64,000 bases of DNA, from contig NZ_SJPK01000003.1 of assembly GCF_007859855.1 (NCBI RefSeq), forward strand, positions 654,795 to 718,794, given 5' to 3'. The translations under genes and the position numbers were made by a program. Below are positions 1 through 49,600 of the stretch, in pieces (the stretch's first letter is position 1; each line of letters opens with the position of its first letter). The notes under the pieces were generated by a model. The model saw nothing but the letters and a program-made list of their open reading frames with translations, did not search any database and was not told the DNA's origin. The stretch comes from Allorhodopirellula solitaria (GTDB lineage Bacteria > Planctomycetota > Planctomycetia > Pirellulales > Pirellulaceae).

Positions 1-1
1 G

Positions 2-133
2 CAGCTTCTCGCTGGCAAGAAGCGTCGAGGCCCTCAATCGATCGGCGACTTGCTGATCGGCTTACTAATTCGTCTTGGAGTGAACCAGGAAAACACTGTA
101 GAATCGAAACCGTCCGAAGCTCTGAAGCCTTAG
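2..133 (+). CDS. 3' end of an unrecognised gene (partial)
   Basis: An open frame enters from the left edge and ends at TAG (131-133), giving 43 residues. The stretch IGDLLIGLLIRLG resembles the first helix of DciA/DUF721 proteins, but there it would be N-terminal, whereas here the frame stops soon after. It may be a truncated DciA-like gene, the tail of another protein, or chance coding. No start is visible. Confidence 0.3.
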   Translation, partial: QLLAGKKRRGPQSIGDLLIGLLIRLGVNQENTVESKPSEALKP

Positions 134-448
134 GCTGAATTGTCGTGCTGCCAAGCACACTAACAACGTCGTCGCATGCCGAGGGTATCGGTGGAGCGTA
201 GCTCTGCTGAGCAAGCCCGTGCTTGAGTGAGATGCTCTGTTAGCGGTTCAAACGCCGGATGAGACAGTGTGGGGCTCTCAGAGCTTCGGATATCTACCAG
301 GGTGGCGAGACTGAACCACCAAAGCTAACCGAGCCGTGCTGGCTGGCCGACAAACAGTGGACTTTGAGTGTCGAAAAAGCTACCCTATTGGTGGTGCCGC
401 TGAGCGTACGCGCGCACTGCAAATTTTCGTTCTGGATATGACAGTACT
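134..448. other. intergenic stretch with no supported gene
   Basis: About 300 bases between the partial frame and the first repeat fragment. The overlapping open frames here have no recognisable domain and run on into repeat sequence, so I do not call them genes. I see no clear terminator or RNA. Confidence 0.4.
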
Positions 449-495
449 CAAAAAACCTTCCGCTGTGCTCTGCGCACGCTTCCGTCGGATGAACC
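449..495 (+). repeat. family A MITE-like element, right-end fragment
   Basis: These 47 bases match the right terminus of the 318-bp family A element (full copies near 27.7, 37.0, 43.6 and 48.6 kb), ending in the same terminal ...TTCCGTCGGATGAACC. The rest of the element is missing on the left. A family B fragment follows directly. Confidence 0.8.
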
Positions 496-8728: not shown

Positions 8729-8973
8729 ATGGGAGTTCGGCTGGAGAGCGAAGGGCGGGGGCAGGGTCGATGATTCGGGGTTCGGGGATGGATCGGAAAT
8801 CGTGCCGAGTCAGGAAATCTCGTGGCAATGCCGTTGTGGGGCGATCGGAGCGTGCATCGAAAGACGACGCCCGAAAGGTGAAAAATACCATGTGGCGGCT
8901 CGGTTGATTGAAATTTCCTGCATTCCGCCGTACTTTTTCCTCAATCCGGAGGTCTTCAAGGGCTGTCGAGCTA

Positions 8974-9203
8974 TTGAGCCGAGACGCGTCAGCGGCGGGG
9001 TGGGCGGCGCTACCCGGGGCCTGACGGCGAATGGCACTTCCCTTCGTTTGCGAAGCGGTCTTGGTATCCCGACGCGTGAGCGAAGATCATCGATTGACCA
9101 CGCAAAGCACTGCATTTTCCTCGCTGACGCATCGGCTTGCCAACCTAGCCATGCCCCAAACGGGGCCAAATTAAGTGCCATTGGCGTTACCGCCCTCGGC
9201 TCA
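8974..9203 (+). repeat. family B element with nested family D element
   Basis: Outer ends TTGAGCCGA and TCGGCTCA are inverted. Comparing with the short copy at 528-589 shows that the middle (9030-9182) is an insertion. The rest of 8729-9457 shows no supported gene; open frames here run through repeat sequence. Confidence 0.65.
9030..9182 (+). repeat. family D palindromic element, copy 1
   Basis: A 153-bp element with inverted ends AATGGCACTT...and ...TTAAGTGCCATT. GGCG flanks it on both sides. Related to the copies at 4806-4959, 14981-15123 and near 43949. Non-coding. Confidence 0.7.
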
Positions 9204-14659: not shown

Positions 14660-14893
14660 GGTTAGACTGGCCCTGCCGGGAGAAACGGAGCCGAAGCTCT
14701 GCAGAGGTGCTGGCTTGGCAAGGGATATCTCGGTCGCCAGCGTTTCCCTGCAAAAGCGGTACGCCAATGGTGTTGTCGGTCCCTGGCGAGCGTTTGTTCG
14801 TCAGGGACGCATTTTTGAACGATCATTGGATACGAGAGCCATGCCTCAAAAAAACTTCCGCTGTGCTCTGCGCACGCTTCCGTCGGATGAACC
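14660..14893 (+). repeat. family A MITE-like element, left-truncated copy
   Basis: Matches the right ~235 bp of the 318-bp family A element and ends in the intact terminus GTCGGATGAACC. It sits inside family D sequence: GAATGGCACTCAGTTTAG lies to its left and CATTTTCCTCGCTGAC, an interior D sequence, to its right. The open frames through it are repeat-derived. Confidence 0.8.
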
Positions 14894-27222: not shown

Positions 27223-27731
27223 AAAATACCTTAGTGAAAGAGTGTAGGCGCAGCAGTTAGCAGCCACCTCAGAGAATTGGTTTTCGGCTTGGCAAGACAA
27301 TGAATTACTGGATCTGAGCAGATCCGGCAGGACGAACCGAGTCGATTCGCTGTGGTTTGCGTGGGGAAGTAAGGTCTTGCGACGCCTTAGGGGGTTATGA
27401 AACTCCGCAGCGTCGGCCAGGTTTCGGGAATTCTCTCGGATTTATTCAGGCTTTGACAGGGGGGCTTCTCGCCTTTTATTGGCGGTCATCCAGGATGCGG
27501 TATTTTCGAGGCTTGGACTCCTGCGTCCCGTGAGAAAAAGGGCAAGCTCACTGCGTTTGGGCCGCACCACTATCGCCCAGGTTGTGCAGGAAATGACAGG
27601 CGAACGGATTGTTCCTTTCCAAGCCAGCGTCCTCACAGAGCTTCGCTCCGTTATTCCCGGCACCTGAACTACATGCGATTTCAGAATGAATCGCAAATTA
27701 CTCGGCGCAGGAGTACAGTACTGAAAAAATC
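27223..27731. other. intergenic stretch with a decayed family A piece
   Basis: No supported gene. Bases 27617-27670 resemble the interior of the family A element in reverse (CCAAGCCAGCGTCCTC, then AGAGCTTCGCTCCG and CCCGGCA), clearly diverged. The remaining sequence shows no recognised feature; the promoter of the DUF1559 gene should lie near 27230-27300. Confidence 0.4.
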
Positions 27732-28365
27732 GGCTCATCCGACGGAAGCGTGCGCCCGAGGTTTTCAAGGCATGGCTCCCGTATCGAAGGATTTATTTGT
27801 GGGATGTGATTATCAATGTTAGACTGGCACTGGCGGGTGAAACGGAGCCGAGCTCGAATGGCGTGGACTTAAGCAGCTTTACTCGAGTTTCACGGGCATC
27901 TGTTTTCGCTTCCGTCCGGCTTGTCCGGGCGGAGCGGCAACTGCAAGCTACCTGCAAAACGCCCTCGCCAGATCGATCTCCGCTCCGGGCTTGTCCCGGC
28001 GGAATCAGCGAAGCAAGTCGTGTGACCGCCGGGACAAGCCCGAGACGGAGCACCGTTTCTACTTCGCATTTTTTCGGTAGCTGCCAGTTGATTCCTCCGC
28101 CGAGACAAGCTCGACGGAAGGATGTCTCACAGGCGGCAATCGCTTAAGTCCACGCCATTCGAGCCGAGCTCTGCAGAGGTGCTGGCTTGGCAAGGGATAT
28201 CTCGGTCGCCAGCGTTTCCCTGCAAAAGCGGTACGCCAATGGTGTTGTCGGTCCCTGGCGAGCGCTTGTTCGTCAGGGACGCATTTTTGAACGATCATTG
28301 GATACTCGAGCCATGCCTCAAAAAACCTTCCGCTGTGCTCTGCGCACGCTTCCGTCGGATGAACC
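27732..28365 (+). repeat. family A MITE-like element carrying a nested insertion
   Basis: Ends GGCTCATCCGACGG... and ...GTCGGATGAACC are inverted, and the element is flanked on both sides by the perfect 8-bp direct repeat AAAAAATC (27724-27731 and 28366-28373). Removing the nested element at 27855-28161 and one 9-bp duplication leaves 318 bp, the same length as the other full copies. Non-coding; the frames through it differ between copies only by repeat divergence. Confidence 0.88.
27855..28161. mobile_element. nested 307-bp family C element with 9-bp target duplication
   Basis: Left end CGAATGGCGTGGACTTAAGC and right end GCTTAAGTCCACGCCATTCG are perfect 20-bp inverted repeats. AGCCGAGCT is duplicated exactly on both sides (27846-27854 and 28162-28170), while intact family A copies have it once. 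The interior holds more palindromes, such as CGGGCTTGTCCCGGCGG with its exact inverse, and no transposase frame. It is best read as a miniature inverted-repeat element moved by a transposase elsewhere. Confidence 0.88.
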
Positions 28366-28810
28366 AAAAAATCCACCACACTGGATCATTCAGGACGGGG
28401 TCTGCGACCCACTTCGGGGTCGACGCTACTCCTTCAACCCTGCACCGTAGCTGGCGCTGCGCTGACCTACGGCTATTGTCTGAAATCCCGATCGGGATAC
28501 TTGTAGATAGTCAGCAGGTTTGCTCCCCCGTGTGCTTGTCACACGCCGAAGCGACGTTTTGAAATTAGAAAACGGCGTCATCGACACGCGTTCCCCTGTC
28601 GGCTTGTCTGGCAGGAAACCAAGCCGACAAACTTTGCGCTGATGCGGGGCACGCCCACATGGGAGCAGCTTGAACCCTCCATCTTCTAATCACAAAACGG
28701 CGATTCCTGTCAGGCAAGTTGACAGTGGATCCTTGATGGGTAACCGACTGCTCGTCGCCTCGCCACTTATCGATCATGCGATGCTACCGTGTGACCAGGT
28801 TGCTTCGAGT
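28366..28810. other. intergenic stretch with small palindromes
   Basis: No supported gene. Bases 28444-28480 carry, inverted, the repeat also seen near 25680 (words GTAGGTCAGCG and AGCGCCA). A TGTCGGCTT/AAGCCGACA hairpin spans 28597-28629. MsrB ends at 28811 on the minus strand. Confidence 0.45.
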
Positions 28811-36941: not shown

Positions 36942-37010
36942 GCCTGGGGTGTTGAAGAGTTGGTGTTGAAGAGTTGGTGTTGACTCGATTATTGCATGCA
37001 CAGGTTTTCT

Positions 37011-37328
37011 GGTTCATCCGACGGAAGCGTGCGCAGAGCACAGGGGAAGGTTTTTCTAGGCATGGCTCTCGTATCCAATAACCTTACAAAAATGCGTCCC
37101 TGAGGAACGAATGTTCGCCAGGGACCGACAATACCATTGGCGTACCGCTTTTGCAGGGAAACGCTGGCGACCGAGATATCCCTTGCCAAGCCAGCACCTC
37201 TGCAGAGCTCGGCTCCGTTTCTCCCGGCAGTGCCAGTCTAACATTGATAATCACATCCCACAAATAAATCCTTGGATACGGGAGCCATGCCTTGAAAACC
37301 TCGGGCGCACCCTTCCGTTGGATGAGCC
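37011..37328 (-). repeat. family A MITE-like element, full copy with 8-bp target duplication
   Basis: Exactly 318 bp from GGTTCATCCGACGGAAGCG to GGATGAGCC, flanked by the perfect direct repeat GGTTTTCT at 37003-37010 and 37329-37336. Inverted ends extend inward imperfectly for about 65 bases. A short tandem repeat (GAAGAGTTGGTGTT, about two units) lies just upstream near 36950-36982. No gene is supported in 36942-37668. Confidence 0.92.
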
Positions 37329-37575
37329 GGTTTTCTTCCGCTCTATTCATGCCCGAAGCGAGCCTCCTTCCATTACCTAGTCTCCCCTCTCCACCGCGCT
37401 TCGTGGGGGCGAGGGGAGACGCCGTGGTTTCGCGATGGATGAGCAAAACAATGCTATCCGAAAAGCACCGGCTACTTTCTAAACCGCCTTCGGCCTGGGG
37501 GTTACATGTGGGGGAAGGGCAGCTCGTTAGGACGTCCACCCACCGCGCGGGTTCGTCTTGGCCTGGGTTTCACGC

Positions 37576-42182: not shown

Positions 42183-43373
42183 CTACCAATCCGCGAGCGG
42201 GTGTTCGCGGTGCTGGAGAGGAAAGGTGACTTCCCTGCCGCCTTGGCGGTGAGATTGGAACACTCCACAAATCATTTCCACCGTCAACGCAGCTTCGACG
42301 GAGTTGCACAATGGCTCGCGGTTGTTTTTTACCGCATCGATCAGATCTTGAGCCTCCGCATCGTGGTGCTGCACCCGCCGGATCTCAGCGAGGTCGGGCT
42401 CGGGGACGTCGACGCCGCCACTGGTAATCGGCAACCAGCGTGCGGGTGGATCGTTCTGCGCAAACGGATTGCCCGGTTGCAGATACGCCAGCGGGTTGCG
42501 ATCGGCGTAGATTGCGATCCTGCCTTCACTGCCGATCAGTTGCAGCCCGAATCCCTGATTCTGTGTTCCGTCGTTGGCGACTGAATCGAAATACGCGACA
42601 ACTCCGCTATCGAGAACGAACCGGGCGTGCAGTTGATTTCCGGCCATCGGGCCTAAACCTTCGGCGCCCTTGCCGACATCGCTGCTGGTCGCGGGGCGTC
42701 CGTCTTGCAGCAGCACCGCCGAACAGGAGCGGGGCGGACCGGCGAGGCTGGTGATTAAATTCAAGACATGGGAACCGAGCACCCACAGATCTTCGCAGCC
42801 GCCTCGCCGGTCACCTTTGCCTCGTCCGCGGATCTCGAGCAGTCGGCCAATGCGACCTTCACGCAGTAGGCCCGCAATCACGTTGATCGCCGGGTGGTAA
42901 CGGTTGCGGTGGGCGACGGCGACGCGTGCACCATGTGTTTGACAAGCGGCGATCACCTCATCGGCTTCAGCGGGCGTACGCACAAACGGTTTCTCAACAT
43001 AGATACCTTTTGCGCCCGCCTCGATGGCGGCCAGGATCATGTCGCGGTGTTGATCGACGTGTCTTGGACAAACCGCAACGATGTCGGGCCGAGTCTGTTG
43101 CAACATTTGACCATAGTCGGCGTATCCGGCGGTCGCAGGCAGTTTCAGTTTCGCCAGTTCTTGGTTTCTACCGTCCGGATCATGGTCGGCCACCGCAACG
43201 ATCGAAGCATCAGGTAATCGCTGCCAAACCGTGTCCAAGCCATGTCCATAATCACCGCGACCGGTGCTGCCGATAACACCCACTTTCAACGGCGGTTGAT
43301 CCGTCGGTGGTTGGGCGGCTAGCGCAGTGGCCGTGAATCCCGAGGCATACATGGCAAATCGGCGTCGGTCCAT
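42183..43373 (-). CDS. Gfo/Idh/MocA family oxidoreductase, Tat-type leader
   Basis: A 396-residue NAD(P)-dependent oxidoreductase-family protein. MDRRRFAMYASGFTATALAAQ is a twin-arginine-like leader, common in planctomycete members, so it is probably exported. The Rossmann region reads KVGVIGSTGRGDYGHG, the EKP motif YVEKPF is present, and HRNRYHPAINVIAGLL with GRIGRLLEIRGRGKGDRRGGCEDLWVLGSHVLNL follows the usual order. Sugar or inositol-type substrates are typical; the actual one is unknown. ATG 43373 is chosen over an upstream frame extension. Confidence 0.88.
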   Translation of the reverse strand: MDRRRFAMYASGFTATALAAQPPTDQPPLKVGVIGSTGRGDYGHGLDTVWQRLPDASIVAVADHDPDGRNQELAKLKLPATAGYADYGQMLQQTRPDIVAVCPRHVDQHRDMILAAIEAGAKGIYVEKPFVRTPAEADEVIAACQTHGARVAVAHRNRYHPAINVIAGLLREGRIGRLLEIRGRGKGDRRGGCEDLWVLGSHVLNLITSLAGPPRSCSAVLLQDGRPATSSDVGKGAEGLGPMAGNQLHARFVLDSGVVAYFDSVANDGTQNQGFGLQLIGSEGRIAIYADRNPLAYLQPGNPFAQNDPPARWLPITSGGVDVPEPDLAEIRRVQHHDAEAQDLIDAVKNNREPLCNSVEAALTVEMICGVFQSHRQGGREVTFPLQHREHPLADW

Positions 43374-43570: not shown

Positions 43571-43888
43571 GGTTCATCCGACGTACGCGTGCGTAGAGCA
43601 CAGCGGAAGGTTTCTTGAGGCCTGGCTCTCGTATCCAATGATGGTTCAAAAATGCGTCCCTGACGAACAAACGCTCGCCAGGGATCGACAACACCATTGG
43701 CGTACCGCTTTTGCAGGGAAACGCTGGCGACCGAGATATCCCTTGCCAAGCCAGCGCCTCTGCAGAGCTCGGCTCCGTTTCTCCCGCCAGTGCCAGTCTA
43801 ACATTGATAATCACATCCCACAAATAAATCCTTGGATACGGGAGCCATGCCTTGAAAACCTCGGGCGCACGCTTCCGTCGGATGAGCC
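43571..43888 (-). repeat. family A MITE-like element, full copy
   Basis: 318 bp from GGTTCATCCGACGTACGCG to GGATGAGCC. Flanks TGTATTGA and TTAATTGA agree at six of eight positions, a possible decayed duplication. A family B copy starts right after it. Confidence 0.88.
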
Positions 43889-48463: not shown

Positions 48464-48563
48464 TGTTCGTGGCGGCGAACTGCCGGTTACCCAGCCGACA
48501 GGGGATCCGAAATGAGACACTCAGCATTCCGCCTGTCCCAGTGGTCTGTCACGACTTATTTCT

Positions 48564-48882
48564 GGCTCATCCGACGGAAGCGTGCGCCCGAGGTTTTCAA
48601 GGCATGGCTCCCGTATCCAAGGATTTATTTGAGGGATGTGATTATCAATGTTAGGCTGGCAATGCCGGGAGAAACGGAGCCGAGCTCTGCAGAGGTGCGG
48701 GCGTGGCAAGGGATATCTCGGTCGCCAGCGTTTCCCTGCAAAAGCGGTACGCCAATGGTGTTGTCGGTCCCTGGCGAGCGTTTGTTCGTCAGGGACGCAT
48801 TTTTGAACGATCATTGGATACGAGAGCCATGCCTCAAAAAAACTTCCGCTGTGCTCTGCGCACGCTTCCGTCAGATGAACCC
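48564..48882 (+). repeat. family A MITE-like element, full copy
   Basis: About 318 bp from GGCTCATCCGACGGAAGCG to GTCAGATGAACC. Flanks CTTATTTCT (left) and CTTATTCT (right) differ by one base, a likely target duplication. Same orientation as the copy at 27732. No gene is supported in 48464-48934. Confidence 0.9.
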
Positions 48883-48934
48883 TTATTCTTAGGGTAGTGG
48901 ACGATCAACCCTAACTTTTAACTGTGACAGACCA

Positions 48935-49600
48935 CTACGCTGAAATCAAAGCCGCTTCGCCCCACAGCGAAGGATCCTCGGCTACCGGAAACTGTTCACT
49001 CAGGGTCAACGATTGATAGCCGAGTTCGCGGTCGGCGACTGCATAGTAGAACCCGATCCGAGGTTGGTCGACGGGATCGAAGCCGGTCATCGCGGCACTT
49101 GGAATCAAGCCGGACATCTCGTACCCATCGTGTTTGGGGGCGGCATGAATCTTCAGCGCGCCGTTGCCAATCGACTTGGGATTTCCTCTGGCACGGTTGA
49201 TCGGTACGAGTTGAGCAACAGGTCGATCGCGTTGGGGACCACCGCCGGCGGGCAGCCACAGGAAACGGTGACAGTGCTGCGTCGCCCGGTGAATATTCGG
49301 GCTATTTCGTGTATCGATCCAAAGGTGCAGCCCGTCGCTCTCGTCGAGACGTGTGTCGCGGCACCATGGCATGGCCCGCTTGCCAGACACCTTGACTGAG
49401 AACCCCATGCCCTCGGTCGACCAAGCGAGGCGCAGGTCGGCGTAGATCGGGCCTCCCGAAAGGGCGGCGAAAGAGGGCAGCCGGCAAGCTTCGGGCAAAG
49501 ACAATCCTCGCGATGTCCACTCCAGATCCTGTTTCAGCAATCGCACCTCGAAGCGAAACAAGATGGTCGGGTCAACGAGTTGTTTTGAATCGAGCGGCAT
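48935..49600 (-). CDS. CBM9-like sugar-binding-fold protein
   Basis: 221 residues without a signal peptide. DADLRLAWSTEGMGFSVKVSG-type strands, DGLHLWIDTRNSPNIHRATQHCHRFLW and the closing GYEMSGLIPSAAMTGFDPVDQPRIGFYYAVADRELG resemble the family 9 carbohydrate-binding (DOMON-like) fold found in planctomycete proteins of unknown role. It stands alone, next to a repeat element, with no enzyme domain. Confidence 0.6.
   Translation of the reverse strand: MPLDSKQLVDPTILFRFEVRLLKQDLEWTSRGLSLPEACRLPSFAALSGGPIYADLRLAWSTEGMGFSVKVSGKRAMPWCRDTRLDESDGLHLWIDTRNSPNIHRATQHCHRFLWLPAGGGPQRDRPVAQLVPINRARGNPKSIGNGALKIHAAPKHDGYEMSGLIPSAAMTGFDPVDQPRIGFYYAVADRELGYQSLTLSEQFPVAEDPSLWGEAALISA

Follow-up and report, generated by a model that had tools for sequence, protein, structure and literature searches.

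MITEs linked to ISL3-family transposases have been described in Microcystis, where the element is 187 nt long (PMC11448079). As described there, this MITE resembles the repeat family analyzed here (hereafter family A, or A) in being non-coding, flanked by 8-nt repeats and mainly intergenic, and the ends of both match those of an ISL3-family insertion sequence (IS): GGCTCTTCG in the Microcystis MITE, GGCTCATCC in A. It differs from A by its phylum, by its 9-nt ends and length of 187 nt, by having its partner IS in the same genome, and because its counted copies are identical. Other relevant systems are IS110/IS1111-type elements that take another repeat as their specific target. According to PMC11187229 and PMC11208160, IS4321/IS5075 (IS1111 group) target Tn21-family transposons at their ends, whereas REP repeats are the target of ISPa11/IS621. 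The IS110-family element that we find within A resembles them in this, but the repeat it occupies is an ISL3-type MITE of a planctomycete. For R. baltica, PMC3733652 reports REP repeats that come with tyrosine transposases; like A, these are high-copy palindromic repeats of the same bacterial group, but they measure 20-40 bp, whereas A is about 300 bp long and has 8-bp duplications and ISL3-type ends.

ISL3-linked MITEs flanked by 8-nt repeats are already known, as are IS1111-type elements that sit at the ends of other transposons. Among the titles and abstract openings of open-licence papers, we found no prior report of an ISL3-linked MITE family in Planctomycetes, and we document a large one here. 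The parts most worth pursuing are its interior, shared across genera, and its putative role as the exclusive address of an IS110-family element. The putative cognate IS, the MITE, its cross-genus copies and the MITE-specific IS110-family element are all available in public genomes, which makes this a tractable system to study how a MITE outlasts the IS it came from and how insertion elements with RNA guides gain repeat targets.

Family A copies in the window

We analyzed a window of 64,000 bp (C3:654795-718794) in the 6.80-Mb draft genome of Allorhodopirellula solitaria (62 contigs, 99.9% complete; coded G000). The original prediction had placed six copies of A in these 64 kb, four full and two partial, and all of them are present:

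1..446, + strand: tail of an IS110-family element, with the last part of its transposase gene and a long non-coding region, inserted in A
447..495, - strand: 49-bp stub (outer end) of a family A copy into which the IS110-family element is inserted, with the remainder left of the window
8929..9049, + strand: paralogue, without insertion, of the site that copy 43571 occupies, with a single 8-bp unit GCTATTGA
14660..14893, - strand: family A copy without about 85 bp at one end
27732..28365, + strand: family A copy interrupted by element B; both TIRs exact; 634 bp = 318 + 316
27724..27731 (left) and 28366..28373 (right), + strand: target duplication (TSD) of copy 27732, perfect 8 bp, AAAAAATC
27856..28160, no strand assigned: element B, 305 bp, inverted ends GAATGGCGTGGACTTAAGC, with an 11-bp repeat GAGCCGAGCTC at 27845-27855 and 28161-28171
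37011..37328, + strand: intact copy of family A, 3' of a parB gene at a distance of about 70 bp
37003..37010 (left) and 37329..37336 (right), + strand: perfect TSD of copy 37011, GGTTTTCT
43571..43888, + strand: intact family A copy, flanks TGTATTGA / TTAATTGA, 6/8 match
48564..48882, - strand: family A copy within another inverted-repeat element (ends TAGTGGTCTGTCAC), flanks TTATTTCT / TTATTCTT

The perfect 8-bp repeats announced for two copies are those of 27732 and 37011, and the expected near-matches flank copy 43571 and copy 48564 (6/8 with the end at 48882, 5/8 with the script-called end at 48881). Two features had been read too simply. The partial copy at 449-495 is real, but it is not a mere truncation: it is the stub of a copy that spans C3:653852-655289 and has been broken in two by the IS110-family element. 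The insertion within copy 27732, likewise real, corresponds to a recurrent element, B, which with its 11-bp repeat occupies this position in further copies of A. A search of the window with the pattern GGYTCATCCGACGG gave 11 matches at ≤2 mismatches, against 2.03 expected, a number reached in 0 of 100 shuffles; ten of them correspond to family A copies, the exception being the match at 43294.

Copy number, structure and divergence

The original prediction of hundreds per genome agrees with a search of the whole genome, where the 19-bp end GGYTCATCCGACGGAAGCG had 353 matches at ≤3 mismatches, against 8 for the reversed control. There are roughly 180 family A copies in this genome. Loci were sampled from 100 listed ends (of the 353) and 40 scored BLAST copies (of 227 candidates), resulting in 70 distinct paired copies; 29 more entries were unpaired, some of them being ends of copies paired elsewhere. 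This sample is not random, with best-matching copies and the first contigs over-represented.

Family A elements are non-coding, 300 or 318 bp long, and have near-perfect TIRs of about 19-24 bp within longer imperfect arms; the 19-bp ends are present on both sides and the arms pair in the predicted fold. Among the 70 sampled copies, 39 measure exactly 318 bp, 10 have another length between 317 and 321 bp, and seven are 299-300 bp long. The outliers are four copies of 93-243 bp and ten of 615-2,306 bp. Nine of the ten long copies hold other elements: the IS110-family insert in four (L039, L040, L042:1083, L180), element B in three further ones (window 27732, L013, L042:6143) and the TAGTGGTCTGTCAC element in two (L041, L178). 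The tenth is L028, of 1,000 bp. Palindromic mini-copies, consisting of little more than two TIRs, were also observed, with lengths of 30 bp (L044:1984-2013, flanked by a perfect 8-bp duplication AATGTTTT) and 34 bp (L169:917-950). Two frames of A, one per strand, are each open in 31 of 39 copies. A protein-coding A was nevertheless rejected: in the one frame on which the test ran, the synonymous fraction was 0.207 against 0.266 expected (251 changes), and third codon positions vary least.

Among the 39 aligned 318-bp copies, divergence from the consensus averages 2.0% (range 0.3-6.6%) and pairwise divergence 3.8%. The recent activity suggested beforehand is supported only in part: there was an amplification burst, but not a brand new one, because no two of these 39 copies are identical. 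We saw no evidence of present-day movement. Variability is lower in the centre of the 318-bp form (0.4-1.2% in consensus columns 140-199) than towards its outer parts (up to 4%).

Target duplications and empty sites

The 8 bp on either side of A are identical in 29 of the 70 paired copies and have at most one mismatch in 40 of them. When flanks were taken from different copies, the frequencies dropped to 0.12% and 0.43%, respectively. Perfect flank repeats of 5-7 or 9-12 bp were not found in any of the 70 copies. The 40 best TSD 8-mers contain 76% A+T, against 45% in their flanks. In 25 of the 70 copies the flanks match at fewer than 6 of 8 positions. Later rearrangement fits these poorly matched flanks better than age does, because in the 318-bp set the copies below 7/8 (n=15) show no higher divergence than the others (n=24, p = 0.94). 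Exact exchanges of flanks between poorly matched copies were found twice, against 0.23 expected.

To look for empty sites, we joined the flanks of copies and matched them to uninterrupted copies of other repeats, which were 85-94% identical. Five paralogous empty sites were found, each with the 8-bp unit present once: TATTTTCT (L011 vs L044), GAATAAGT (L200 vs L039), ATACTTGT (L044 vs L165), GCCGAAGT (L168 vs L195), and the site of copy 43571, whose uninterrupted paralogue is at 8929-9049 of the window, with a unit GCTATTGA that has two mismatches to the copy's left flank (TGTATTGA). Copy 48564, for which a hand alignment covered one side only, was not counted. Copy 37011 could be compared with four close relatives, Aporhodopirellula aestuarii, Rhodopirellula sallentina, R. 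rubra and Neorhodopirellula pilleata, whose ParB is 78-81% identical: A is absent 3' of parB in all four, where the intergenic DNA is unalignable. Joined insertion sites fall inside an ORF of at least 150 codons in 24 of 67 cases (three of the 70 copies were dropped for short flanks), compared with 446 of 500 random window positions; as ORFs are overcalled in G+C-rich DNA, only the contrast is meaningful. The length-specific duplications and the paralogous empty sites show that A is mobile; with the absence beside parB, they bear out the proposal of a mobile, transposase-less inverted-repeat element that makes 8-bp duplications.

An ISL3-family insertion sequence with matching ends

A Pfam search detected ISL3 transposases in 11 of the 13 genomes of the genus, including A. 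solitaria. Ends like those of A were found in one ISL3 lineage, an IS of 1,336 bp in G006 and G002 (1,335 bp in G001). Its transposase has the PF01610 and HTH_Tnp_ISL3 domains, and Zn_ribbon_ISL3 is above the cut-off in two of three proteins. The full-length IS with A's ends and an 8-bp duplication that had been anticipated was thus found in sister species, but not in the assembly of A. solitaria itself.

The ends of this IS are matched by all 70 sampled copies of A, over at most 33 bp; the best copies match over 24 bp at 100% or 29 bp at 97% (E about 1e-8 to 1e-9). The matches lie mostly at its 5' end (274, vs 49 at the 3' end), and none of the 70 copies has an interior that matches the IS. 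Among eight IS copies read, three have perfect 8-bp repeats (CGAGAATA, TTATTTAC, AAAAGCCC), one has a 7/8 repeat, and four have no clear TSD. The three perfect duplications have A or T at 16 of 24 bases, too few for a preference to be called. This PF01610 element and A are alike in their terminal 24-33 bp and 8-bp duplications, and differ in that A has no transposase, is 300 or 318 bp long instead of 1,336 bp, and has an unmatched interior. Considering this unmatched interior, a similarity of ≤33 bp and its bias towards one IS end, we rejected the idea that A is an internal-deletion derivative of the IS. We also rejected the initial reading of two loci: G012:C1:4427195-4427337, taken for an A element with IS coding sequence, consists of an IS fragment directly beside an A end, and G000:C8 (L122), taken for a parental IS with an A end, is another ISL3 lineage fused to a partial A copy.

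Relatives of the IS transposase at E≤1e-120 occur in 5 of 241 genomes of the family, with 0 matches in A. solitaria, where the best protein by E-value is 30% identical and none exceeds 37%. As its assembly has no close relative of this transposase, the present driver of A in this genome is absent, lost or still to be identified. G006 has intact copies of the 1,336-bp IS alongside A-type elements. It also has a 253-bp near-perfect palindrome (L256:425-677) made of two head-to-head 3' ends of the IS, including C-terminal codons of the transposase.

Distribution across the Pirellulaceae

We searched 199 genomes of the family for the end pattern of A at ≤2 mismatches and found it in 63, mostly with 1-2 matches, like the reversed control. 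Six genomes have a clear excess: G000 (324), G122 (143), G006 (46, a number that includes the IS's own ends), G012 (29), G198 (12) and G149 (10). A close relative of the IS transposase was not found in G122; G012 has only a 36-codon fragment, 89% identical, and G198 has one, with a match beginning at residue 46. Flanks of paired copies match at no fewer than 7 of 8 positions in 13 of 19 copies in G122, 3 of 11 in G012 and 1 of 2 in G198. Further A-type copies have flank matches of 8/8 and 7/8 in G198, 3/8 and 6/8 in G006, and 4/8 in G007.

In 18 chosen, aligned elements, the interior of A is homologous across three genera. The interiors of G000 and G122 are 72-73% identical (300- vs 297-bp forms), those of G006 reach 70-75%, one form from G198 63%, and the G007/G198 lineage 54-55%. 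Elements of G007 and G012, which belong to the genus of A. solitaria, have interiors 90-91% identical to those of G198, from another genus, for which intergenus transfer is the likely reason, judging from these alignments. We regard A as an old lineage, and not as the product of a recent local deletion.

Proposed mechanism and alternatives

The best explanation, to which we give a probability of about 0.83, is that A is a MITE that an ISL3-family DDE transposase, acting in trans, inserts into A+T-rich 8-bp targets, producing the 8-bp duplications. The transposase is predicted to recognise the ends of A and would move it into such targets, which would be duplicated upon insertion. The burst in A. 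solitaria would have been driven by an IS of the 1,336-bp type, or by a lost or unsequenced relative. A itself is an established lineage, amplified in some genomes, since elements from three genera of the Pirellulaceae have homologous interiors. The mover is very probably an ISL3-family insertion sequence: ISL3-type movement is supported, at the level of sequence comparison, by the shared ends and by a TSD length equal to that of the IS.

A nearer source of transposase would be the ISL3 elements resident in A. solitaria, of the 1,312-bp L105/L114 type (ends GGTTCTTCTCGG...). They have intact frames of 414 and 425 codons, L105 has a perfect 8-bp TSD (CTCCCTCA), and their ends, like those of A, begin with GGTTC. 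We still find it improbable that they move A: past GGTTC-TC their ends differ from those of A, the ends that do match belong to a different ISL3 lineage, whose protein is about 30% identical to the resident one, and the flanks of L114, the other intact copy, match at only 4/8. Members of the resident lineage do have 8-bp duplications (L103 and L105). Even less probable is a mover unrelated to ISL3 and so far unrecognised, the similarity of the ends being due to chance or convergence. While the unmatched interior and the lack of a partner IS in the assembly would fit such a mover, the terminal matches of the best copies, at E about 1e-8 to 1e-9, and the TSD length common to A and the 1,336-bp IS argue against it.

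The homology of the interior across genera, together with a strong predicted fold (z = -8.4), might also point to a functional non-coding RNA, or a regulatory repeat, that is dispersed and maintained by host selection. We consider this very unlikely. Long inverted arms are expected to give a strong fold, covariation contributes only -0.28 kcal/mol, with any double change in 8 of 48 predicted pairs, and the sole Rfam match at gathering score in the window is a tRNA; moreover, TSDs and empty sites show movement.

Elements nested in family A

A in turn appears to be the target of another mobile element. The IS110-family element is 1,975 bp long and its transposase has the PF01548 and PF02371 domains. 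We found 26 of its left termini in the genome, all with 0 mismatches in a search that allowed three. All 26 (L274-L299) lie within A. In 25 cases they share one position in the arm of GGTTC type; the remaining one, L285, is at the mirror position in the opposite arm. The interrupted target is CCATGC-CT-CAAAAAA. Several draft contigs stop shortly inside this element.

Relatives of the element that are 62-71% identical (in G009, G149, G010 and G164) occupy sites without similarity to A, where both junctions likewise have a CT. The locus of a 39% relative in G011 contains an A-like end of 23-24 bp. A long non-coding region lies 3' of the transposase gene, and such a region has been reported for the IS1111 type (PMC11187229 and PMC11208160). 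Our search of it for a guide gave matches of only 6-7 bases, and RNA guidance is presumed from the family to which the element belongs. The chances seem evenly balanced that an ISL3-type MITE lineage common to several genera of the Pirellulaceae now serves as the exclusive address of an RNA-guided IS110/IS1111-type element, with a guide that would have been retuned to the MITE arm. If this two-level chain is true, the roughly 180 MITE copies are landing pads already in place for the IS, most of them intergenic, and the amplification of the MITE determines how many safe sites the IS has.

Element B lies at one identical site of A in the window (27732), in L042:6143-6757 and in L043:856-1470, and its orientation relative to A is opposite in L043:856-1470 and in the window copy. 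This suggests that B is a second, site-specific miniature element.

The TAGTGGTCTGTCAC inverted-repeat element is found at about 48539-48563 and 48883-48937 of the window, with A inside, and itself sits inside A in L041:979-1690, so the two families nest mutually.
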